The notes below the pieces were generated by a model. It was not told where the DNA came from, did not search any database, and worked only from the letters and a program-made list of their open reading frames with translations. Shown piece by piece: positions 29,304 through 39,428 of a stretch of DNA of 64,000 bases (its first letter is position 1; every line of letters begins with the position of its first letter). The stretch is from assembly GCA_009917695.1 (NCBI GenBank), contig JAACJG010000004.1, forward strand, positions 62,001-126,000, read 5' to 3'. Source of the stretch: Candidatus Rifleibacterium amylolyticum (GTDB taxonomy: Bacteria; Muiribacteriota; Ozemobacteria; Ozemobacterales; Ozemobacteraceae). The position numbers and the translations under genes were made by a program.

Positions 29304-29353
29304 ACTGTCATGTTAACGCATTTTTATCTGTATATAAAGCAGTCAGATAAAGG

Positions 29354-29800
29354 TCAAGCAAAAACTGTTGCCAGCCAGTTGATGATGAGGATGACGATGA
29401 CAAAAGGAACTGGTCGGTATAGTATCGTTTCGATTCGCTTTGTATAGCCTTTCGATCCGGTTTTCAGCAGGTATAGCCGAAATGGTATCTGTAGCGCAAT
29501 AATCAGAAAAAGCGGAATTCCGAGGCGGTGATAGAAATAAGACTCACTGAACTGACCATGTGTCAGGGCGGTGAAGCTGCGAATCAGGCCACAACCTGGG
29601 CAGCTGTGCATAAAGAGAACCCGGTGCGGGCAAACCGGCGGTATGCGCCAGTTCCCAAGCGCTACCCGATCTTCGCCAGGATAAGCGGGTGCAAGAAAAA
29701 ACGGCAAAACCACCATGACAGTAGCGAACAGCAGCTGAACCCACTGATGTGCGCGAAAGCGTTTTTCGAGATCGATGATGTTGTCAGCCGGTTCGCTCAC
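29354..29800 (-). CDS. DUF2752 membrane protein
   Basis: A 148-residue integral membrane protein with three predicted helices. The family motif is CPHRVLFMHSCPGCGLIRSF (Cys residues near 57, 67 and 70). DUF2752 function is unknown. It is the last gene of the ubiquitin-like operon and overlaps the preceding zinc protein by 4 bases (ATGA), so it is expressed with it. Confidence 0.85.
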   Translation of the reverse strand: MSEPADNIIDLEKRFRAHQWVQLLFATVMVVLPFFLAPAYPGEDRVALGNWRIPPVCPHRVLFMHSCPGCGLIRSFTALTHGQFSESYFYHRLGIPLFLIIALQIPFRLYLLKTGSKGYTKRIETILYRPVPFVIVILIINWLATVFA

Positions 29801-30582
29801 CTTGAGCCGGCGTTGGCCAGAGCGCCGATGAACATTGAAATCGCGCTGTACATCATAAGCTTTTTACCTTTGGGGTTGCCCTGAGCCGAATAGATTATGC
29901 CTTGAATAAAGGCGATGATGGGGCAGCACAGAACTCCTATCCAGTCAGTCGTAGAAAGCTCGACATTTTCATCGAGGGCCTTGGTATTGGTTTCGCGGTC
30001 TTCATCACGCTGAAACTCATTGCAATGTTTGCACTTGCGGGCGCCGCGCATGATGGGTTCTTTGCACCAGCGGCAGGGAACCATGTTGGCGCCGCCTGGA
30101 GCTGCTGGCTTTGACATGGCGCCTTCCATGTCGTCAAATCCTCCACCGGAGAGACTTCGACTGGGTGCAGCATGCGCCGACGGTCGCGAACTGGAACAGG
30201 CCGGGCAACCTCCGCTTTGTTTCCAGCAGCCATCATGGTTGATAGACTGACAGGTCGGGCAGTTATGAATGGGCTCGCCAAGATTGATGATTCTTGCACA
30301 TATTGCGCAGGGCTGACCAGCCACCCGCTTGTTTGCCTTCATCAGTTCGGGAAGTGGTTCACCGCCAGGTGCCGGTGCGGCAGGAGCGGCGGGGCGAACA
30401 GCTGCTGGCGGTCTTGCCGGTGGTGCCGAAGGCGGCATCCCAGCTGGTCTGCTGCTTGCCGGTGCTCCTTGCGAAGAGATCGGCACTGCGCTTTTGCATT
30501 GTGGACAGGTTATGAACTGCGATCGTCTTCCTTCGGGTATTTCAATTTCCTCACCGCATTTTTTGCAGAAAACACTGGCCAT
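29797..30582 (-). CDS. Prok-RING/zinc-ribbon membrane protein
   Basis: A 261-residue protein. An N-terminal zinc ribbon (CKKCGEEI...CPQCKS) is followed by a Pro/Ala-rich linker (residues 40-75). The Prok-RING-type finger CAIC-x11-C-x2-C-x4-H-x2-CW...CPAC lies at about 95-130. A second ribbon (CRWCKEP...CKHC) is at 168-185, and two C-terminal hydrophobic segments follow (WIGVLCCPIIAFIQGIIY, LMMYSAISMFIGAL). Such treble-clef RING domains are candidate E3-like adaptors. It lies 60 bases after the E2 gene. Confidence 0.8.
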   Translation of the reverse strand: MASVFCKKCGEEIEIPEGRRSQFITCPQCKSAVPISSQGAPASSRPAGMPPSAPPARPPAAVRPAAPAAPAPGGEPLPELMKANKRVAGQPCAICARIINLGEPIHNCPTCQSINHDGCWKQSGGCPACSSSRPSAHAAPSRSLSGGGFDDMEGAMSKPAAPGGANMVPCRWCKEPIMRGARKCKHCNEFQRDEDRETNTKALDENVELSTTDWIGVLCCPIIAFIQGIIYSAQGNPKGKKLMMYSAISMFIGALANAGSR

Positions 30583-30642
30583 TTCTCTCTCCGCCTTTCC
30601 GTGAACTTACAACCTTTTATTATGAGCAAAAGAACAGAAAAA

Positions 30643-31530
30643 TCAAGTGAAACATTTCGAACATCTGTAATCATTGGTTTCAGCAACAGGCTTGATATGT
30701 TCGAGACAGGTTGCTTGCCCGCATACAGCGCAATCTACACTGCAATCATAACAGCTGGAAGTGCCGCACACATGGCATTTTATCGCGTGCGCCGGGCATA
30801 GGTCAACTTTGCATGACTGACATTTTGTGTGGCAATGTACGCAGATTATCTGCTTGCAGGCTGAGCAAATGCTGGTGACGCACTTAAGACATATCTGCTG
30901 ACCGCAGGCAGAGCACTTCATGGCACAGCTGGCGCAGACCGGATGCTTGGAAGAACAGACAATAATCTGTGAGCCCTGAACCTGAGTGCCACAGTTGGCA
31001 CAGTTCATCATGCTGTTTTCATCGATCTGGCTGGCTTGGGACTCAGACAACACCTTTTCGCCGGCCTCGTAATAGCCAGAAAAGTCCATTTTGTCTACTG
31101 GAAACCTGTTGGCATTCTTGCTGGCCCACTTGGCTGCTTCGCCGTTGAGTGGGCTTTTCAGATTGTAACTTTGAAATGCCAGCATCTCGCCAATTCGCAC
31201 GATAAGATGCGGCAGCGATTCGCCGGCGGCCCAGTGGTCGCCGATGCAGATCGCGTGCGGCGCTATATTAGGGTGAAATACCGGGGTCAGCATGCGGCAT
31301 TGAGGGGGCTGGCGAGGATACGAAGCGGTCAGATAGATCTCGGCGATATGATTGTTTTTTACCGTAACTGAACCATCTGGCTTCATGACCAGGCTGTTGA
31401 CCAGAAACTCAATCTGGTACTTTTCAGGCGGATTGCCGTTGGCAGCTTTGATCTGTATGCGGCCGCCTTCCTTGAAGGTATCAACGATTTTTGCGTAGTC
31501 TGATTGCAGGCGTCTGTGTCTGATGCTCAT
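30643..31530 (-). CDS. E2-like ubiquitin-conjugating enzyme fused to zinc fingers
   Basis: A 295-residue protein. Residues 1-160 form a UBC fold: the strand AEIYLTASYPRQPP (63-76), then the HPN motif (86-88) and ICIGDHW with catalytic Cys95, seven residues after Asn88, close to the eukaryotic spacing of eight. A Cys/His-rich tail (about 175-293, 24 or more Cys) repeats CxxC units, such as CANC, CSAC, CQSC, CHVC and CAVC. It would take ubiquitin-like protein from the E1 and pass it to substrates, the tail acting as a built-in E3-like module. The ATG at 31530 overlaps the previous stop as ATGA; the first 20 codons of a longer frame are excluded. Confidence 0.88.
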   Translation of the reverse strand: MSIRHRRLQSDYAKIVDTFKEGGRIQIKAANGNPPEKYQIEFLVNSLVMKPDGSVTVKNNHIAEIYLTASYPRQPPQCRMLTPVFHPNIAPHAICIGDHWAAGESLPHLIVRIGEMLAFQSYNLKSPLNGEAAKWASKNANRFPVDKMDFSGYYEAGEKVLSESQASQIDENSMMNCANCGTQVQGSQIIVCSSKHPVCASCAMKCSACGQQICLKCVTSICSACKQIICVHCHTKCQSCKVDLCPAHAIKCHVCGTSSCYDCSVDCAVCGQATCLEHIKPVAETNDYRCSKCFT

Positions 31531-32870
31531 TCCTGATTTTCCTTCTCGGCAGGTAAGGTTAAGCCGGGTAAAGCCAGGACTTCTGCCCATTCCGGCTCTA
31601 ATAACTGAAAGAATTCATCGATTGCAATTGAAAAATTAAGGCCTTCAGTGACGGTTTTGGCATAAATCCAGGTGTTCACGCCAATAAGATAGCCGTCGAG
31701 ATCGTAAAGGCCGCCACCAGAGTTGCCGTGATTGAGAGGAGTCTGAATCTGAACGACGGTAAGGTCTCTCGTTCCAAAACTGTTCTTGCGCAATGCCGAA
31801 ATAACTCCTTCGGTGTATGTCCAGTTGAGTCCTACCGGGTTGCCGATGGCGAAAACTCGCTGGCCCATGGTGAGTGGCCTTCCTCGCTGATACTTTAGAG
31901 TCGGCACAAAACCTGCCGGGGTAGTCACTCGTAACAATACCAGGTCTATTTTGTCGGGAGCGAGCCAGATCGGTGTGCCCTTTACCGTTTCACCAGAATA
32001 AAAAGTTACCTCGATGTCGCGGGCTATTCTTTCGAGTGCCGAAAGGCTGGAAACGCTGGCGCCGAGAGATAGGACATGAGCGTTGGTGAGAATATATGTG
32101 AAATTGTCACGGTTGCACAGAGTGATACCAGAACCGGTTCCAGCTCTCAAGCCAGAGCCTGACTTGATGTGAACGTTGGCCATAAGCGGCCCTCTGATGC
32201 CCGGCGAAGCGGTTCGTATGGTTTCGGCAACCTGTTTCATGTCGAGTTTGAAGCTCTCACCCGGGCCCTCTGGTGAGTTGATAAGAGGATACACGGTAAG
32301 GATCATGGCGAGAATGCCGCCGCCCATACCGACAAAAGAGAACAGCAGTCCTTTTTTTCCGCTATTGTTATGAAATGTAGCGGCCGAAAGGGCACCCAGC
32401 AGAATTGACAGCACGCAGCCGCCGGCTGCGATGAGAAAATAACCCATCTGACCTTCAGAAGACGAATCTGTCGTCAGATTTATGAGACTCACACCAAGTG
32501 CGCCCATGCCGAACACCAGGGCAACGATGGAAAGAGGTGCCCAGCCGGTTTCCTGACGCTTCGCCATTTCGTGCGCAATGGCGGCGGTGCCGTGTCTGGC
32601 GTTTCTGGGAAGCTCTTTGAGAGATTCAAGATCGTTTTTAGTAATGACAATATCTACCGCATCACTCGAAAATGTTCTTGAATTGCCGGTCTGGCAGTGA
32701 TAACTACCACAGCCCTGGCGTTGCCAGCAAATTTCATGGTTCAGAGAGCCGCATTTATTGCAGATCATTGCGACTTCGCCTTCCTCTATCTGCTTGAGAC
32801 AGGCTGGGCAGGTTGTGCCAGCTCTGAGGCTGTCAACGGTTATGAGCTCTCCACTGTTGTTTGTGTTCAT
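31527..32870 (-). CDS. Membrane-anchored RING plus trypsin-like serine protease
   Basis: A 447-residue fusion. Residues 21-60 form a Prok-RING finger (CPAC-x11-C-x2-C-x4-H-x2-CW). Three hydrophobic segments lie at about 112-130, 142-162 and 176-198. Residues 230-425 are an HtrA/trypsin-type protease with His265 (TNAHV), Asp309 (DLVLL) and Ser384 (GNSGGG). A short segment VDIVITK (72-78) recurs in the FHA protein of the same operon. The start forms TAATG with the stop of the previous gene. It could degrade or process tagged membrane proteins. Confidence 0.88.
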   Translation of the reverse strand: MNTNNSGELITVDSLRAGTTCPACLKQIEEGEVAMICNKCGSLNHEICWQRQGCGSYHCQTGNSRTFSSDAVDIVITKNDLESLKELPRNARHGTAAIAHEMAKRQETGWAPLSIVALVFGMGALGVSLINLTTDSSSEGQMGYFLIAAGGCVLSILLGALSAATFHNNSGKKGLLFSFVGMGGGILAMILTVYPLINSPEGPGESFKLDMKQVAETIRTASPGIRGPLMANVHIKSGSGLRAGTGSGITLCNRDNFTYILTNAHVLSLGASVSSLSALERIARDIEVTFYSGETVKGTPIWLAPDKIDLVLLRVTTPAGFVPTLKYQRGRPLTMGQRVFAIGNPVGLNWTYTEGVISALRKNSFGTRDLTVVQIQTPLNHGNSGGGLYDLDGYLIGVNTWIYAKTVTEGLNFSIAIDEFFQLLEPEWAEVLALPGLTLPAEKENQE

Positions 32871-33538
32871 TAAAATACCATCGAGTATAGTATAAATACT
32901 GCGGCAATTGCTGCCCACAGCGCAGAAATAGCAAAAGAGGCGTAAAACAGAACTTTGAGTGTGGGTGGCAGCCTTTTTACGCGAAAAATCCAGCTGTCGG
33001 TAAAAGCGGCCAGGGCGTTTATCGGTAACATGATGAAAAACAGGCAGCCCAGGGTGCTGAGAATGAACTGAATTATGACATTGGTTTTTATCTTGTTCAG
33101 TTCTTTTTCGTCGTATTCACGGTCGCGCCACTCTTCTTTGGTCATCGGACGCTCGGTTGGAAAAGTGGAACGGCATACCTTGCAGACAAGCGCGTTGGCA
33201 ATAATGCTCGAACCGCATTCCGGGCATTTCTTTTCGGCTGTCCAGCCCGGGGTAAAAACATCTTCGGGTACATCTTCTTTCAGTGTTGCGACAGGCGCCG
33301 CAGTGCAGCCATAGGTGCCGCAGCCGCCGATTTCTTTCCAGCAGTCATGGTGATAAGGTTGCGAGCAGACCGGGCAGACCACTATGGTGTCGCTGCTCAA
33401 AATAGCAGTTCCACAGGTCGAACACAGCTTGCCAAGGTGCTCTTCTGCCGGAGCGACTGGCGTAACCTGAACCCTGGCATTCTGAGAGGGCGATTTGCCT
33501 GGAGTACGTGCCCGAGAAGCCGGCGAAATGTTATTCAT
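32870..33538 (-). CDS. Prok-RING and zinc-ribbon membrane protein
   Basis: A 222-residue protein with a disordered N-terminus, a Prok-RING finger (CSTC-x11-C-x2-C-x4-H-x2-CW...CGTYGC, residues 39-78), a zinc ribbon (CPECGSS...CKVC, near 104-122) and two C-terminal transmembrane helices (about 152-178 and 195-220). It is coupled to its neighbours: ATGA at its start, TAATG at its end. Probable membrane-bound E3-like adaptor, by analogy with RING ligases. Confidence 0.83.
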   Translation of the reverse strand: MNNISPASRARTPGKSPSQNARVQVTPVAPAEEHLGKLCSTCGTAILSSDTIVVCPVCSQPYHHDCWKEIGGCGTYGCTAAPVATLKEDVPEDVFTPGWTAEKKCPECGSSIIANALVCKVCRSTFPTERPMTKEEWRDREYDEKELNKIKTNVIIQFILSTLGCLFFIMLPINALAAFTDSWIFRVKRLPPTLKVLFYASFAISALWAAIAAVFILYSMVF

Positions 33539-34629
33539 GATCTGTCCTTCTGTTGAAATTCGAGAAGACTTTCGCCAATGATGATTATATCGCCCTTCTC
33601 GAGTATCTTCTTTTTAACCCGTTGCGAATTAACAAAAACCCCCTGTGGACTGCCTTTGTCTACTATTTCGAACTTGCTGCCGATTTGGCGCAGTTCTGCG
33701 TGATGCGGTTCGACAGCCGGATCCTTGAAGATGTAGACATCGCATTTGGGTGAACTTCCAATAACCGTGGGGTTGTGGTAGACAACGAACTGTTTGCCTC
33801 TGAGCGGGCCGGTTTTCATGATCAACCAGGCGTCTTTGGTCAGATTTTCGATGAGGCCGATAAAAATACCGACCATCATACCGATGGTGCAGAAGCCGAT
33901 CATGCGGCTTGCCCCGCCGGAATCTTCAAACCCGAGTTTGGTAAGCGAAAATCCGATCGGGTCGAAGACCAGGCCTCCGAGAAATCCGCCAAGAAGGCCG
34001 CCGACCAGGCCATTGAGCAGTAATTTTTTTGATTTCAGCGCAACGCCAGGGCCGACACCCATGCCGGCTCCGACGATTGTCCAGGCGATAGCGCGCGAGC
34101 TGATCAGAATAAAGACAATGCCGGGTGTGAGAAAGCCAAGAGGATCAGCCGGGTCAATTTTAGGAGCTTCTGACATAAAAAACGGCAGGCCAAACGCCTT
34201 TACCATATTCATGACAAAGCCGCCAATCATGGTGCCGAATATGCCCCAGAGAAAGCCGATGCCAATGCCGATGCCACCGCAGCGCATCGCTTTTGAAAAA
34301 TTTCTCGACATTATGCCTTCGATAAGTCCGACAAAAAGACCGATCATCGAAGGAACTGCGACGAGCATTACCAGCAGAACAATCCCGCGTTCTTCTCTTT
34401 CTCCGGCAGCAGTTACGAAAGGCTCGATGCCGGCCCAGGCCAGAAATGCTCCGACAAAGCCTGCTGCAGCGGTATAGAAAACCGGATTCATCCAGAGCGA
34501 GGTCTCTACAGGCGCACGTTCGGCTGGCGACAACTGGCGTTTGGCAGCCTGTTGCGCCATCAGCATGTCTTCTATCTGCGGGTTTCGCAGTTCGGTCTTG
34601 GTAATAACTATGTTAACTTCGTCGGCCAT
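33535..34629 (-). CDS. Membrane protein with C-terminal FHA domain
   Basis: A 364-residue protein. The N-terminus DEVNIVITKTEL resembles the VDIVITK segment of the neighbouring RING-protease. About seven glycine-rich transmembrane segments cover residues 45-265. The C-terminal 90 residues form a forkhead-associated domain (FVVYHNPTVIGSSPKCDVYI, then HHAELRQ and GVFVNSQRV), which binds phosphothreonine peptides. It could recruit phosphorylated targets to the ubiquitin-like machinery at the membrane; no kinase is visible in this locus. Confidence 0.85.
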   Translation of the reverse strand: MADEVNIVITKTELRNPQIEDMLMAQQAAKRQLSPAERAPVETSLWMNPVFYTAAAGFVGAFLAWAGIEPFVTAAGEREERGIVLLVMLVAVPSMIGLFVGLIEGIMSRNFSKAMRCGGIGIGIGFLWGIFGTMIGGFVMNMVKAFGLPFFMSEAPKIDPADPLGFLTPGIVFILISSRAIAWTIVGAGMGVGPGVALKSKKLLLNGLVGGLLGGFLGGLVFDPIGFSLTKLGFEDSGGASRMIGFCTIGMMVGIFIGLIENLTKDAWLIMKTGPLRGKQFVVYHNPTVIGSSPKCDVYIFKDPAVEPHHAELRQIGSKFEIVDKGSPQGVFVNSQRVKKKILEKGDIIIIGESLLEFQQKDRS

Positions 34630-34662
34630 TTTTCCCTCCCTGTTGCTCTCGAGCGTTTTTCG

Positions 34663-35952
34663 TCAGAAAAACAGCCAGGGCAGCTTCTCTCTTAATCCGG
34701 GTTCAAGTCTCGGGTCGAGTTGAATAATGTGTTTTACCAGCGGTTGTGCTTCGCGAATGCGATTCATGTCGAGTGGCTGCGAAGACAGCGAAACCAGATA
34801 TGGCATTATCTGGATCAGAATACTTTCGGCCATGACTTCTCGAAGCTGACTGATTACCTGTTTTGATTGCTCCAGACTGGTGACGGTCTGGCCAGAAACA
34901 GATGCAAGTGCTTTGTGAACACGGTTTCGGCGATTCGCTGTCGCAGTGGCTATTTCACTCATACGGGCGACAAGGTCGTTTATGTCTTCACTAAAGCTTG
35001 CGTTAAGTGCGGCAAGTTCGGGTGAGCCAACGAATTGGCCCTCGTATTTTTTCGCCAGAGCGGCAACTTTTCCGTGCAGAAGCTGAAACTCTTCAGCCGC
35101 CGCCGTATCAGCCGACCAGGCCCCGAGAAGTTCGCGGGTTTCCGCTCGTGCGGCAGTTAATGCGGCATGATAAAAAGTGCTGCGCAGAGTTAAAAGCGAG
35201 AGCGAAATACCCACAAAAAACGCCAGCGCAATCATCAGAAGGGGGGGGCGGCCGAGGCCAGACGAATCACTTTTTTCGATTCTTACAACGGTCGTCGCCG
35301 CATTCTCTCCTTGCTGTGCAGGTGGCTCAACCATAGGCATTTTCTCGAAATTCTTTTCGGTGCCGACCGGCCCCTGCGTAAGTTTGCGCATTTCATCGCC
35401 AACCCAGCAGCGCGACAGGGCGCAGGTTTTGCCGTTGATCCAGGCAAAAAGTCCTTCTTTTGATGAGGTCGGATCGATGACCAGCGCTACCTGAAATGGC
35501 TGATTGAAAAAATAGTCCTGAATGAATTTATCCATGTCCGAAAGGAAGATGCCGAAGCCGGGGTGGGTGTGATACCAGCCAACTATTGCGCGTCCCTTGA
35601 AGTTTGCTTCCATTTGAGAATGAATGTAATCCCAGGTCTCGTGGGTGAAAACAACCTGAGCGCCTTCGTTACGCGCATGTTTGCCTCTTATGCTGCCATT
35701 GATAATCAGATATTTTCCGACGTCGTCCTGGCAGGTGTTGCCGACAAGTATTCCGCACTGTTCGACAGCGACTGTTTCTTCGGCATGTTTCTTAATTTCG
35801 GCATATACATCCGGGTCTATCATCACTCGTGGTTCAACCACGCTGCGACCAGGAAATGGTTTGCGCTTGGTCTGATTAACTGCATAATCACCGTGAAAAT
35901 CAAGGCCCTCTACCGCCGGCTGATTGTTGGTCTGGTTATTTTCTTTAGTCAT
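34663..35952 (-). CDS. Membrane-anchored JAMM/MPN+ deubiquitinase-like protease
   Basis: A 429-residue protein. The JAB/MPN domain (about 40-190) has the full JAMM set: Glu64 (VEQCGIL), His128 and His130, Ser138 and Asp141 in WYHTHPGFGIFLSDMD, very close to eukaryotic Rpn11. A single transmembrane helix lies at 238-257, followed by about 170 residues of helical, probably coiled-coil region. The first 200 residues lie before the helix, so they are probably cytosolic. Likely roles are trimming the ubiquitin-like precursor or removing conjugates. ATGA overlap with the E1 gene. Confidence 0.9.
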   Translation of the reverse strand: MTKENNQTNNQPAVEGLDFHGDYAVNQTKRKPFPGRSVVEPRVMIDPDVYAEIKKHAEETVAVEQCGILVGNTCQDDVGKYLIINGSIRGKHARNEGAQVVFTHETWDYIHSQMEANFKGRAIVGWYHTHPGFGIFLSDMDKFIQDYFFNQPFQVALVIDPTSSKEGLFAWINGKTCALSRCWVGDEMRKLTQGPVGTEKNFEKMPMVEPPAQQGENAATTVVRIEKSDSSGLGRPPLLMIALAFFVGISLSLLTLRSTFYHAALTAARAETRELLGAWSADTAAAEEFQLLHGKVAALAKKYEGQFVGSPELAALNASFSEDINDLVARMSEIATATANRRNRVHKALASVSGQTVTSLEQSKQVISQLREVMAESILIQIMPYLVSLSSQPLDMNRIREAQPLVKHIIQLDPRLEPGLREKLPWLFF

Positions 35953-37169
35953 GGCATCATCCTGTTGGCGAGAGGCCCGAGAACTCTCTCGCGATCGCCG
36001 TTCAAAAGATAATAAATCTGGCGTTCACCATCGCTGCCGATGAACACGTCAAAATCGGGGATTCCAAGTTTTGCCAGAGTCATGTCCTGCCATTCTGAGC
36101 TGGCGTCAAACTGATGTGACATGATCGGAAAGCGTTGCCTGCCGCATTTCGGGCATACTGCGTCTGCTTCGCTGACACGGCCGAGTGACGAGTGATATTC
36201 GACGTCTGCGCTACAGTCTGAGCAGGAAAAGCCGGTCAGCACCTCGTGCCGCAGTTCCATCACTGCATTCTCACCAAGATCCTTGTGGATAATCTTGAGA
36301 GCTTCACCCAGTGTCAGTTTACGAGCTTCGGCGTCGAGCTCGACAACCGGTTTATAAGTCTCATGCGAGAAACACTCAGCTTTGCGTTTATAAGTAATGA
36401 TATCCTGATAAAAGCTCAGGCCTTCAAAAAAGAAGCCTCTACCGGTTATTACTTCGAGCCCGTGCAGCAGTTTGATCGCTTCCTGGCACTGTACAGCTGC
36501 AATCAGACTGGCAATTGTCGGCGTCGTCGGGGTTTTGCCAGACATCATTTCTTCTCTTGTCAGCAAAGTGCAGGATTTTCGGGCATTCAGCACCTTCCAG
36601 TCGACTTCACTCATGGTGCATTCGTAACATGGACCATCCGGGCCAAACACTCTTGCTATACCGCTCAAGCCTTCTATTGCACCATCGATCCAGGTTTTTC
36701 CGCATCTAAGCGAGTTCTGGTTGATGGCAAGACGCGCTTCGCGGTTGTCCAGGCCGCCCAATATGACGTCAGCCCAGAAAAAAGCTCCGATACCAAGATC
36801 GGTGACTACGTTTACACTCAAAGATCTGATATTGATGTCGGGAAAAATCTCGCGGGCACGCTCTGCCGCTACGTCGGCCTTGTAACGCCCGCGGTCCGAT
36901 TCCCTGAATAAAATCGATCGCGACAGGTTAGAAGGCTCGATCTGATCGAAATCGACCAGCAGAATATTGCCTATTCCCGTCAGGGCAAGGTTTTTGATAA
37001 TTTCATTGCCGAGTGCGCCGGCGCCAATAACTAATATATTGGCGCTTTGCAGGCGCTTTTGATCCCACCAGCGAATCAGTTCGAAACGCGAAAACCGGTT
37101 TTCTTCCTTTTTTGTGTCGATAATCAACACATCGGAGTCGGGATCAGCTTTGAACTGATCTGCGCTCAT
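35949..37169 (-). CDS. E1-like ubiquitin-activating enzyme (ThiF/UBA fold)
   Basis: A 406-residue E1. It has a Rossmann GAGALGN (49-55) with LVDFDQIEPSNLSR (71-84) giving the ATP-contacting Asp and Arg, Lys98, Asp141 (GGLDNR), and candidate catalytic Cys200 (KSCTLLTREE). Helix TPTTPTIASLIAAVQCQEA follows, as in eukaryotic UBA3/UBA2. C-terminal Cys pairs (316/319 and 339/342) add a zinc ribbon. It would adenylate the C-terminus of the ubiquitin-like protein and hold it as thioester. The start overlaps the ubiquitin-like gene as ATGA. Confidence 0.9.
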   Translation of the reverse strand: MSADQFKADPDSDVLIIDTKKEENRFSRFELIRWWDQKRLQSANILVIGAGALGNEIIKNLALTGIGNILLVDFDQIEPSNLSRSILFRESDRGRYKADVAAERAREIFPDINIRSLSVNVVTDLGIGAFFWADVILGGLDNREARLAINQNSLRCGKTWIDGAIEGLSGIARVFGPDGPCYECTMSEVDWKVLNARKSCTLLTREEMMSGKTPTTPTIASLIAAVQCQEAIKLLHGLEVITGRGFFFEGLSFYQDIITYKRKAECFSHETYKPVVELDAEARKLTLGEALKIIHKDLGENAVMELRHEVLTGFSCSDCSADVEYHSSLGRVSEADAVCPKCGRQRFPIMSHQFDASSEWQDMTLAKLGIPDFDVFIGSDGERQIYYLLNGDRERVLGPLANRMMP

Positions 37170-37444
37170 GGTGTTTTTCCGGCTGTGATTTCGGGCTGGA
37201 TTCTCAGAACATCACCTGATTGTACGCCAGCCTGATAAAATGTTTCGTCGTCGAGCAGCTGTCGGCCTGACGCCTTGTGATGGAATTTATAACTCATCAA
37301 CTGCCCGTCAGGGGTAAATCTGGGCAGATTCATCTTGTCGATCAAAAGTATGATTATGCGGTTCAATGCTTCGTCATCTGGTAACTCGGCCTTTACCTTT
37401 TTATTGCCGGTAGCATCCCAGATCTCTACCAATATGGACCCCAT
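37166..37444 (-). CDS. Ubiquitin-like beta-grasp protein
   Basis: A 92-residue protein with the beta-grasp order: strand ILVEIWDATG, strand KVKAELPDDE, helix NRIIILLIDKMNL, then FHHKASGRQLLDDETFYQAGVQSGD (key match to ubiquitin around GRQLLDDxTxxxxGVxxGD), ending VLRIQPEITAGKTP. It resembles YukD-type ubiquitin-like proteins. There is no terminal Gly-Gly; the tail after the last strand has one Gly (Ala-Gly-Lys-Thr-Pro), so any activation would need trimming after Gly89 or a different end. AGGAG precedes the start. First gene of the nine-gene operon. Confidence 0.85.
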   Translation of the reverse strand: MGSILVEIWDATGNKKVKAELPDDEALNRIIILLIDKMNLPRFTPDGQLMSYKFHHKASGRQLLDDETFYQAGVQSGDVLRIQPEITAGKTP

Positions 37445-37649: not shown

Positions 37650-38675
37650 ATGTCTGCATACGGTAAATATTTTTTAGCACTGCTTGCGCTGCTGCTCGTT
37701 TTGTCGGGTAGCGATCGCTTGCTGGCTCAGGAACCGGAAGCAGACAGGTTATACCGACAGCTTATGGAGCTCCGCAGCTTTGAGCAGCTGCAGAATCCTT
37801 CAAACAATGCTGCAGACAGCTCATCAACTACAATTGCCAGCTTTTTTGCCAGCCTGCAAGCTTCTGATGAATTTAATGAAAATACCGCTGAAGTCTGGGC
37901 GGGCTTCTTTGACCTGACTTTTGCACGCGACGATGACGGGAACTTTTCGCGGCGTCTTGAAATATTGAGCAATGAAGGTCGCCGGCAATCTGCCGCAATA
38001 CCGCCAGAATGCAATGATCATGAACAAAAGCCATTTACCGGGCATGTCAGAGAAGCGATAGAAGTAAACAAGGCCAGGCAGAAGTATTATGCCGGCATAT
38101 CCAAAGGTGCTACCAGCAAGGTTTCTTTGCTTTACACTTCGCTTGAATACAGCCTGCTTCCCATTACTTTCGTTTTTGACCGCTGGGCGCAGAAGTTTCG
38201 CAAAGACGGAATTCCGGTTCTGGCAGAAGATTTTGTTGCGATGAGCGGCATCTCTACTGCCGATAAACCGCTTTTGCGACGTGGAATGCTCGATCGTGCC
38301 GGTCGCCGAGATCTTCGGAAAATGCTGCGGGCCTGGCAATGGAAAAGCGGTCTGGCTGCTGCCCGCAAAGATTTTGTTAAAGTCCAGATTCTGGCGTTGA
38401 GCGCTTTGCATGACCTGCGCCAGCTGGAACTCCGATACCAGTGCAATCTGGCCTTGACCATACATTTTGTCGAATCGGTCGGTCTGGCCGCCCGTAATGC
38501 TGACCGGCTCAGTCACCGGTATGCAAAGCGCACCGATGATTTTTATCGCGCTTTCATCGCCATTCAGATCAGCGGAGTCAGACTTTTTTCAAAGGTCGAT
38601 TTACAGGCGCAGCCTTTTCATCGCGCCGGCATCGGCATAATAGTAAACGACCTCCCCGCCATCCCTTTCCCCTGA
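37650..38675 (+). CDS. Exported protein of unknown function
   Basis: A 341-residue protein with signal peptide (positive start, hydrophobic core, cleavage near LLAQ|EP at residue 27). The rest is mostly helical and rich in Arg, Lys and Glu, with no recognisable domain. It diverges from the ubiquitin-like operon across a 205-base gap in which I see no strong promoter. A TATCAT box lies 9 bases before the ATG and no ribosome site is obvious, so the true start may differ. Confidence 0.55.
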   Translation: MSAYGKYFLALLALLLVLSGSDRLLAQEPEADRLYRQLMELRSFEQLQNPSNNAADSSSTTIASFFASLQASDEFNENTAEVWAGFFDLTFARDDDGNFSRRLEILSNEGRRQSAAIPPECNDHEQKPFTGHVREAIEVNKARQKYYAGISKGATSKVSLLYTSLEYSLLPITFVFDRWAQKFRKDGIPVLAEDFVAMSGISTADKPLLRRGMLDRAGRRDLRKMLRAWQWKSGLAAARKDFVKVQILALSALHDLRQLELRYQCNLALTIHFVESVGLAARNADRLSHRYAKRTDDFYRAFIAIQISGVRLFSKVDLQAQPFHRAGIGIIVNDLPAIPFP

Positions 38676-38858: not shown

Positions 38859-39428
38859 ATGAAAAGAACTGACGAACAACTTCTGCTGGATGTAGCCAGA
38901 GCCGATAAAAGCGCCTTCAGGGAGCTTTATCACAACTGGTCGCCGGCGATCTATCGCCTGGTAAAGCGAATGATCGCAGGTAAGGGCGATGATTGCGACG
39001 AAGTTTTTCAGGAGGCGATGCTGAAAATCTGGAAAAATGCGCCTCTGTTCGATCCGGCAAAAGGACGGGCAAAGAGCTGGATATATCTGGTGGCGACGCG
39101 ACACTGTCTTAACTGGCTCGAAGCCAGAAGCACCAGAAACAAAGCGAAGGAGACTGTTCTCGATGACTCGGCACCAGATGCCGGATGCGGACCGGAAGAG
39201 CAGGCCGCGCGTAACGAAGAGGCCCGGCGCGCGGTTGCCTTACTCGATCGTCTTCCTGATGATCTGCGGCAGGTTGTAACCCTGCGTCATCTCGAAGATT
39301 TAAGTATAGATGAGATTGCTGAAATTACTCAGGTTCCGGCCGGAACAGTTAAAAGCAGAATATTCTATGGCCTGAAGAAGCTGCGAGGCTTCTTCTTCAA
39401 GGAGAACTCCGATGAAAAGAAAAACTGA
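38859..39428 (+). CDS. ECF sigma factor
   Basis: A 189-residue extracytoplasmic-function sigma factor. Region 2 covers RELYHNWSPAIYRLVKRM to WIYLVATRHCLNW (residues 20-88), and region 4 covers LPDDLRQVVTLRHLEDLSI to TVKSRIFYGLKKLR (about 130-177), the helix-turn-helix that reads the -35 box. The overlapping next gene is its anti-sigma factor. The 180 bases upstream hold AATCG-type short repeats and A/T runs but no recognised ECF promoter. Confidence 0.92.
   Translation: MKRTDEQLLLDVARADKSAFRELYHNWSPAIYRLVKRMIAGKGDDCDEVFQEAMLKIWKNAPLFDPAKGRAKSWIYLVATRHCLNWLEARSTRNKAKETVLDDSAPDAGCGPEEQAARNEEARRAVALLDRLPDDLRQVVTLRHLEDLSIDEIAEITQVPAGTVKSRIFYGLKKLRGFFFKENSDEKKN

Follow-up and report, generated by a model that had tools for sequence, protein, structure and literature searches.

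Does a bacterium carry a complete ubiquitin-like conjugation pathway at its membrane, and if so, what does it serve? This question is raised by nine genes of Candidatus Rifleibacterium amylolyticum (host genome 5.39 Mb) that lie at 29354-37444 of a 64,000-nucleotide stretch of contig JAACJG010000004.1, hereafter the window. All nine are on the minus strand and run from 37444 to 29354 in the order ubiquitin-like protein (Ubl), E1, JAMM peptidase with a transmembrane (TM) helix, FHA-TM, RING-TM, RING-TM-protease, E2-zinc, RING/zinc-ribbon-TM (RING3) and DUF2752 (Table 1). Eukaryotic-like E1-E2-RING-JAMM sets have been predicted in bacteria since 2011; to our knowledge, none of the experimentally studied bacterial E1-E2-JAMM systems contains RINGs, and those systems serve phage defence. 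Here we propose that the locus encodes a complete, reversible pathway for Ubl conjugation that is based at the inner membrane and most likely serves envelope protein quality control or stress signalling, a reading to which we give a probability of about 0.55.

Conjugation residues are intact and conserved

A genome scan with the E2 alignment yielded 296 bacterial relatives, and the best 80 of these, five loci from relatives in the phylum and the window itself make up the 86 loci compared here. Their parts were counted with iterated profiles, and because many loci end at contig edges, the counts are lower bounds. The Ubl C-terminus reads PEI(T/V/I)AG in 45/45 relatives, some of which stop exactly at the Gly and others of which carry variable tails (KTP in the window). 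Such an invariant end with a variable tail is, at the level of sequence, the mark of a conjugated and trimmed Ubl. The first-pass annotation, made from the window alone, had correctly named the catalytic residues E1 Cys200, E2 Cys95 after HPN, JAMM Glu64, His128, His130 and Asp141, and protease His265, Asp309 and Ser384. It had also pointed to homologues lacking the E1 or E2 Cys as what would speak against it; Cys200 is present in 47/47 readable E1 copies, and HPN and Cys95 in 86/86 readable E2 copies. No copy that has the columns departs from the four JAMM residues and Ser138, or from the protease triad. Three sequence marks of ubiquitin-type conjugation, namely a C-terminal Gly on the Ubl and the catalytic Cys of E1 and of E2, are thus intact and conserved.

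The E1 is nearest to UBA7 and UBA1 among PDB sequences, and the E2 to canonical UBC enzymes such as UBE2A; no chain called Bil or Cap2 is among the matches listed for either, and the Ubl profile has zero PDB matches. The AlphaFold2 (AF2) model of E1 (pLDDT 90, pTM 0.88) joins a core like that of ThiF to a C-terminal domain bearing the zinc ribbon. Its nearest folds are ThiF, MoeB, UBA3 and UBA5, and it aligns along the length of UBA3, but with a root-mean-square deviation above 10. An E2-binding ubiquitin-fold domain, as looked for in operons of the Prok-RING type, is absent among the Pfam families listed for the E1 C-terminus. This closeness to ThiF and MoeB would also suit a sulphur-carrier system of the ThiS/MoaD kind, whose E1 and JAMM would be ubiquitin-like only incidentally. 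However, the nearest PDB sequences are ubiquitin-type E1s, the E1 is accompanied by RINGs and by an E2 of the UBC type whose Cys is intact, and the set has no sulphur-transfer genes, which makes a sulphur carrier the least probable of the alternatives considered.

The Ubl matches Pfam YukD (35.3 bits, cut-off 27); YukD itself reportedly does not undergo conjugation (PMC1779556). As type VII secretion systems also include FHA and membrane proteins, the Ubl could be an unconjugated, structural part of a machine of that sort. On the other hand, the genome has no WXG100 protein, which renders type VII secretion unlikely; an FtsK/EssC-type ATPase is absent from the conserved set, the E1, E2 and JAMM sites are intact and the C-terminal Gly is invariant, and we consider such a machine very improbable. 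Taken together, the parts, their intact residues and their recurrence bear out the earlier description of a complete membrane-tethered set for Ubl conjugation and deconjugation, and argue that conjugation itself very probably takes place.

Putative ligase parts and a DegS-like protease are predicted in the membrane

Six of the nine proteins have predicted TM helices (one in JAMM, six in FHA-TM, two in RING-TM, three in RING-TM-protease, one or two in RING3 and three in DUF2752), in line with an earlier estimate of at least five. The Prok-RING_1 domain is confirmed in a protein with TM helices: RING-TM matches it at 2e-11, above the cut-off, and has a conserved C4HC3 signature whose last part is YHxxCW...GC..YGC. 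The other two RING proteins score 27 and 27.5 bits against the 29.1 needed, and equivalents of RING3, with its zinc ribbon and RING, occur in relatives. From their domains, the RING proteins may act as E3 ligases.

In the AF2 model of RING-TM-protease (pLDDT 86), a confidently modelled RING (residues 8-60) is followed by three TM helices (113-134, 142-167 and 176-199) and a protease domain (224-433). Structure prediction had been suggested for the proteins of the locus; E1 and RING-TM-protease were modelled. The protease domain has NCBIfam matches to the DegP/HtrA/DegS families and, in the PDB, comes closest to the periplasmic stress sensor DegS. It shares with the DegS/HtrA periplasmic proteases the fold, the triad and a predicted exoplasmic placing behind a membrane segment; unlike them, it has no PDZ domain, and a putatively cytosolic RING and three TM helices stand before it. 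Averaged over 28 relatives, the loops hold 2.6 Lys and Arg residues ahead of TM1, 0.1 between TM1 and TM2, 3.2 between TM2 and TM3 and 2.1 after TM3, where acidic residues average 4.1. Given the positive-inside rule, and because the RING must meet the E2, the RING is predicted to be cytosolic and the protease exoplasmic. A two-TM reading of the planctomycete protease proteins was dropped, since the loop charges and the window AF2 model favour three helices.

That most parts are membrane-bound, and that the Ubl has a single C-terminal Gly, would also agree with a role other than quality control, in which the Ubl is joined to a lipid of the membrane or, for Atg8/LC3-like membrane remodelling, to its proteins. 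However, the E2 is of the UBC type with HPN and Cys and is not Atg3-like by search, JAMM peptidases in known cases cleave isopeptides, and RING proteins are abundant, so that we hold lipid attachment or remodelling to be improbable.

A phospho-blind FHA-like domain and a shared juxtamembrane motif

In the main membrane FHA copies, GSSP or a similar sequence stands at the phospho-threonine-binding GRS site; the Arg occurs in none in which the site could be aligned, and the Ser ligand is missing too in most. Without the canonical phospho-threonine ligands, this FHA-like domain is not to be taken for a reader of phosphorylation; its sequence suggests that it probably serves as a scaffold. Several Phycisphaerae have, in the slot of RING-TM, a canonical FHA domain (GR, SR.H, N) fused to the same RING and TM helices (L064, L069, L080, L082, L084, L085, L087, L095, L098 and L099). 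This FHA-RING arrangement recalls eukaryotic ligases such as RNF8 and CHFR, and control by phosphorylation is plausible for the Phycisphaerae fusions.

FHA and protease proteins share the motif [ILV]x[ILV][polar]xx[DEQ][LVIM]. It stands directly before the first TM helix in 32 of 45 protease proteins (0.7 expected) and likewise in 19 of 50 FHA proteins (2.8 expected), the expected values flattering the motif in that the pattern was picked after the sequences had been seen. In the window, the copies are IVITKTEL (FHA protein, residues 7-14) and IVITKNDL (RING-protease, residues ~74-81). The FHA-protein motif tracks the protease gene, being present in 17 of 23 loci with the protease and 2 of 22 without it (Fisher P ~1e-5, a count by locus uncorrected for relatedness, in which some Myxococcota/Acidobacteria matches are possibly spurious). 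A common cytosolic partner for the motif of both proteins is a reasonable guess from this pattern.

Locus layout

The nine one-strand open reading frames were verified in the window, and the families named in the first-pass annotation (ubiquitin-fold, E1, JAMM, FHA, RINGs, protease, E2 and DUF2752) have Pfam matches. Its claim of overlapping start and stop codons almost throughout stands for six of the eight junctions, which are of the ATGA/TGATG type; the JAMM/FHA and E2/RING3 junctions have gaps of 33 bp and 60 bp. The best start is the ATG at 32870 for the protease gene and the ATG at 31530 for E2, the latter being backed by relatives.

Table 1. The nine genes of the locus in order of reading, with positions in the window.
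Gene	Position	Strand	Features	Match
Ubl	37166..37444	-	92 aa, YukD-like beta-grasp, C-terminus QPEITAG-KTP	Pfam YukD 2e-8
E1	35949..37169	-	406 aa, single adenylation domain, Cys200, C-terminal domain with zinc ribbon	ThiF 1e-50
JAMM peptidase	34663..35952	-	429 aa, one TM helix ~238-256, C-terminal tail predicted exoplasmic	JAB 1e-10
FHA-TM	33535..34629	-	six TM helices, C-terminal FHA-like domain, GSSP replacing GRS, N-terminal IVITKTEL	FHA 2e-14
RING-TM	32870..33538	-	222 aa, Prok-RING, zinc ribbon and two TM helices, candidate E3	Prok-RING_1 2e-11
RING-TM-protease	31527..32870	-	447 aa, RING, three TM helices and HtrA/DegS-like serine protease without PDZ, juxtamembrane IVITKNDL	Trypsin_2 7e-23, AF2
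E2-zinc	30643..31530	-	295 aa, UBC domain (HPN...Cys95) and Cys/His-rich zinc-finger tail	UQ_con 6e-11
RING3	29797..30582	-	261 aa, zinc ribbon, Prok-RING, zinc ribbon and C-terminal hydrophobic segment(s)	Prok-RING_1 3e-6 (just under cut-off)
DUF2752	29354..29800	-	148 aa, membrane protein, CPGCGLxR motif	DUF2752 5e-14

The set recurs across phyla and moves as a block

The first-pass annotation had called for a search of related genomes for the same gene order. All six core classes are present in 39 of the 86 loci, and 37 loci, spread over several phyla, have them ordered Ubl-E1-JAMM-FHA-...-E2. In 11, protease and DUF2752 are both present as well. DUF2752 occurs in 38 loci, mostly at that end of the operon where E2 lies and in a few on the opposite strand. 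FHA, serine protease and DUF2752, earlier taken for apparently new additions, are not special to this genome and recur widely. Carriers include Riflebacteria, Planctomycetota (the most), Verrucomicrobia/Victivallales/Kiritimatiellae, Acidobacteria/Holophagaceae, Myxococcales/Deltaproteobacteria, Fibrobacter and others, although names of single metagenome-assembled genomes may err. Additionally, the tree distances of all tested parts are correlated (Mantel r 0.51-0.88, P = 0.001 each). An ordered set that recurs in 37 loci with correlated trees is not due to chance; as the correlations include shared genome ancestry, they show co-inheritance and not contact. Occurrence is patchy: eight of the 40 genomes from the window's phylum have the E2, as do 35 of 394 sampled Planctomycetota (~9%), some of which have only distant forms.

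The history of the site points the same way. Five genomes of the same genus have no E2 match, and three sister species (G023, G024 and G026) have an empty site in which a MalE-like gene adjoins the gene at 37650-38675, the MalE gene of G026 being interrupted by a contig end. The left-flank alignment of G023 reaches window position 29340, which is 14 bases short of the end of DUF2752. These empty sites indicate that the nine genes were gained or lost as a single block. Two further genomes (G010 and G011) carry a split set, with Ubl-E1-JAMM-FHA-RING3-RINGtm on one contig and RING-protease-E2-DUF2752 on another; that all nine families are kept there without linkage is strong evidence for joint function. 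The smaller genome G008 has no Ubl match and a stop inside the E2 frame, and to judge from its sequence the copy is apparently decaying; in its loci L006, L015 and L016, an FHA-like membrane stretch and the protease share one frame. An ECF-like sigma-factor gene (named by eye) lies close to the operon at 38859-39428. As it also adjoins the empty site in the sister species, it belongs to the old neighbourhood and not to the operon.

De novo clustering of the flanking genes revealed no universal tenth gene. Recurring neighbours, named by eye, are zinc/GYF-type genes in some Verrucomicrobia/Planctomycetes and Wzz-like genes in some Phycisphaerae. Extra Cys/His-rich zinc-finger proteins, one of them GYF-like, adjoin the operon where the E2 has no zinc tail (L032, L033, L037, L062, L070, L088 and L093), and the complete planctomycete chromosome with locus L070 (G040) bears two separate E2 loci of the family. 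Compact cousins (L018 and L019) consist of E1, Ubl, E2 and JAMM only, with no membrane parts seen. A plasmid search with E2 found only two haloarchaeal zinc-finger matches and, carried by a Crinalium epipsammum plasmid (L136, 4248-7725), a distant and compact set of ThiF, Ubl, E2 and JAMM, in which no membrane parts were seen and two Ubl-like genes end in EGGY and EVS.

Comparison with known systems

Burroughs, Iyer and Aravind reportedly proposed Prok-RING E3s and the conjugation of YukD-like Ubls in 2011 (Mol BioSyst 7:2261). As far as later accounts (PMC4197634, PMC4029887 and PMC11354881) describe them, operons of that type combine a YukD-like Ubl, E1, E2, JAB and Prok-RING proteins with membrane helices, and Ubl, E1, E2, JAB and RING stand together in the window as well. 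Related uncharacterised operons are mentioned for Actinobacteria, Planctomycetes and Acidobacteria in the part of PMC4197634 that cites Burroughs et al. 2011, and isolated UBC matches for Riflebacteria (PMC11354881). Relative to the 2011 type as known second-hand, the window set adds a Riflebacteria member, an FHA-like membrane protein, a RING-TM-DegS-like protease, a zinc-tailed E2 and DUF2752. The core type is, on these second-hand accounts, known in outline; what is added here, as far as could be checked, is that the nine-part form is widespread, that the EITAG-like end of the Ubl does not vary, that a RING-protease is predicted to cross the membrane, that the FHA is phospho-blind, and that sites occur both empty and split.

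The ubiquitin operon of Caldiarchaeum subterraneum (Ub, E1, E2, a small RING and Rpn11; PMC5654768, PMC6043591 and PMC4197634) likewise has one of each enzyme class, a RING E3 and a Ub precursor processed by JAMM; by its literature description it differs in being archaeal and in having no FHA, protease or DUF2752 part. Bil (BilABCD) similarly unites Ubl, E1, E2 and JAMM peptidase in one operon, but has a two-domain Ubl, an E1 with an inactive and an active adenylation domain, and a CEHH-motif E2 (PMC11354881), whereas the window set has a one-domain Ubl of 92 aa, one ThiF match in a 406-aa E1, an HPN E2 and, in addition, RING, FHA and membrane parts. Membership in Bil was ruled out on these Ubl, E1 and E2 architectures. 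CBASS Cap2/Cap3 and other E1-E2 fusions (classes 6A-6E) share the ThiF-type E1 and JAB peptidase; a Cap2-type fusion was ruled out, because E1 and E2 are fused in CBASS and are separate genes in the window. Against the PADLOC/NCBIfam models of E1-E2 fusion systems, only the adenylation core of the E1 aligns.

Phage defence or the envelope

What would the pathway be for? In a defence role, the Ubl would disable phage particles or their proteins, the mode proposed for Bil, or activate a defence enzyme, as Cap2 does with bacterial cGAS, and the protease would be the effector. The patchy occurrence and block-wise gain or loss described above would fit, other bacterial E1/E2/JAMM systems protect against phage, and trypsin-like proteases are found in defence systems (weak PADLOC matches). 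However, PADLOC matches only a handful of 124 neighbour proteins, mostly generic enzymes, and Pfam shows the neighbours to be varied, metabolic and regulatory. Neither whole-protein defence-model matches nor a defence-island context was found with PADLOC, where likeness is confined to the adenylation core, JAB and trypsin-like folds, and the E2, FHA, Ubl, DUF2752 and stand-alone RING parts have no match. A scan of viral contigs with the E2 alignment found no relative, a Ubl search of phage records found no match, and six of the nine proteins are membrane proteins. Defence is in our view unlikely, and less likely than an envelope role; the patchiness keeps it alive.

We therefore return to a reversible pathway at the inner membrane, which we prefer for quality control or stress signalling mainly because a DegS-like domain is joined to a RING. 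From the computed features we infer how catalysis, E3 activity, substrates and purpose may fit together. JAMM or another peptidase would trim the Ubl tail to -EITAG; E1 would adenylate the terminal Gly, load the Ubl onto Cys200 and hand it to E2 Cys95; membrane RING proteins would recruit E2~Ubl to targets in or near the membrane; and the membrane JAMM would take the tag off. RING-TM-protease would link the cytosolic ligase side with the exoplasmic DegS-like protease, connecting envelope damage and cytosolic tagging, in either direction, in one polypeptide.

Several points weigh against this proposal. The model of RING-TM-protease has a pTM of 0.65, so that the placing of the RING relative to the protease is uncertain, and an exoplasmic protease cannot itself degrade cytosolic Ubl conjugates. 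A proteasome partner is unlikely, since the lone proteasome-family match in the genome is one 192-aa frame, taken to be HslV from its size. The conserved set has neither an unfoldase nor a regulator. The main FHA-like domain lacks the GR Arg, and in most copies also the SxxH Ser, of a canonical phospho-threonine reader. The protease is missing in several lineages and ~91% of the sampled Planctomycetota have no detectable E2 of this kind, so that the function is not a housekeeping one. On balance, an envelope role through reversible tagging at the inner membrane has about an even chance.

A more specific form is an ERAD-like (endoplasmic-reticulum-associated degradation) membrane ligase pathway across the inner membrane, which we offer only tentatively. 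The DegS-like protease would sense or cut misfolded envelope proteins, its own cytosolic RING and the shared juxtamembrane docking motif would direct Ubl tagging of membrane proteins, and the phospho-blind FHA would be the scaffold. If true, this ERAD-like counterpart would be an independent and widespread bacterial use of the full E1-E2-RING-JAMM chemistry outside immunity.

The set is complete, its catalytic residues are all intact across several phyla, and prediction places ligase parts and a DegS-like protease in the membrane. It provides defined proteins for asking what RING-dependent tagging does in bacteria, and whether a RING couples to a protease across the membrane; conjugates could be sought directly by the invariant EITAG tail.

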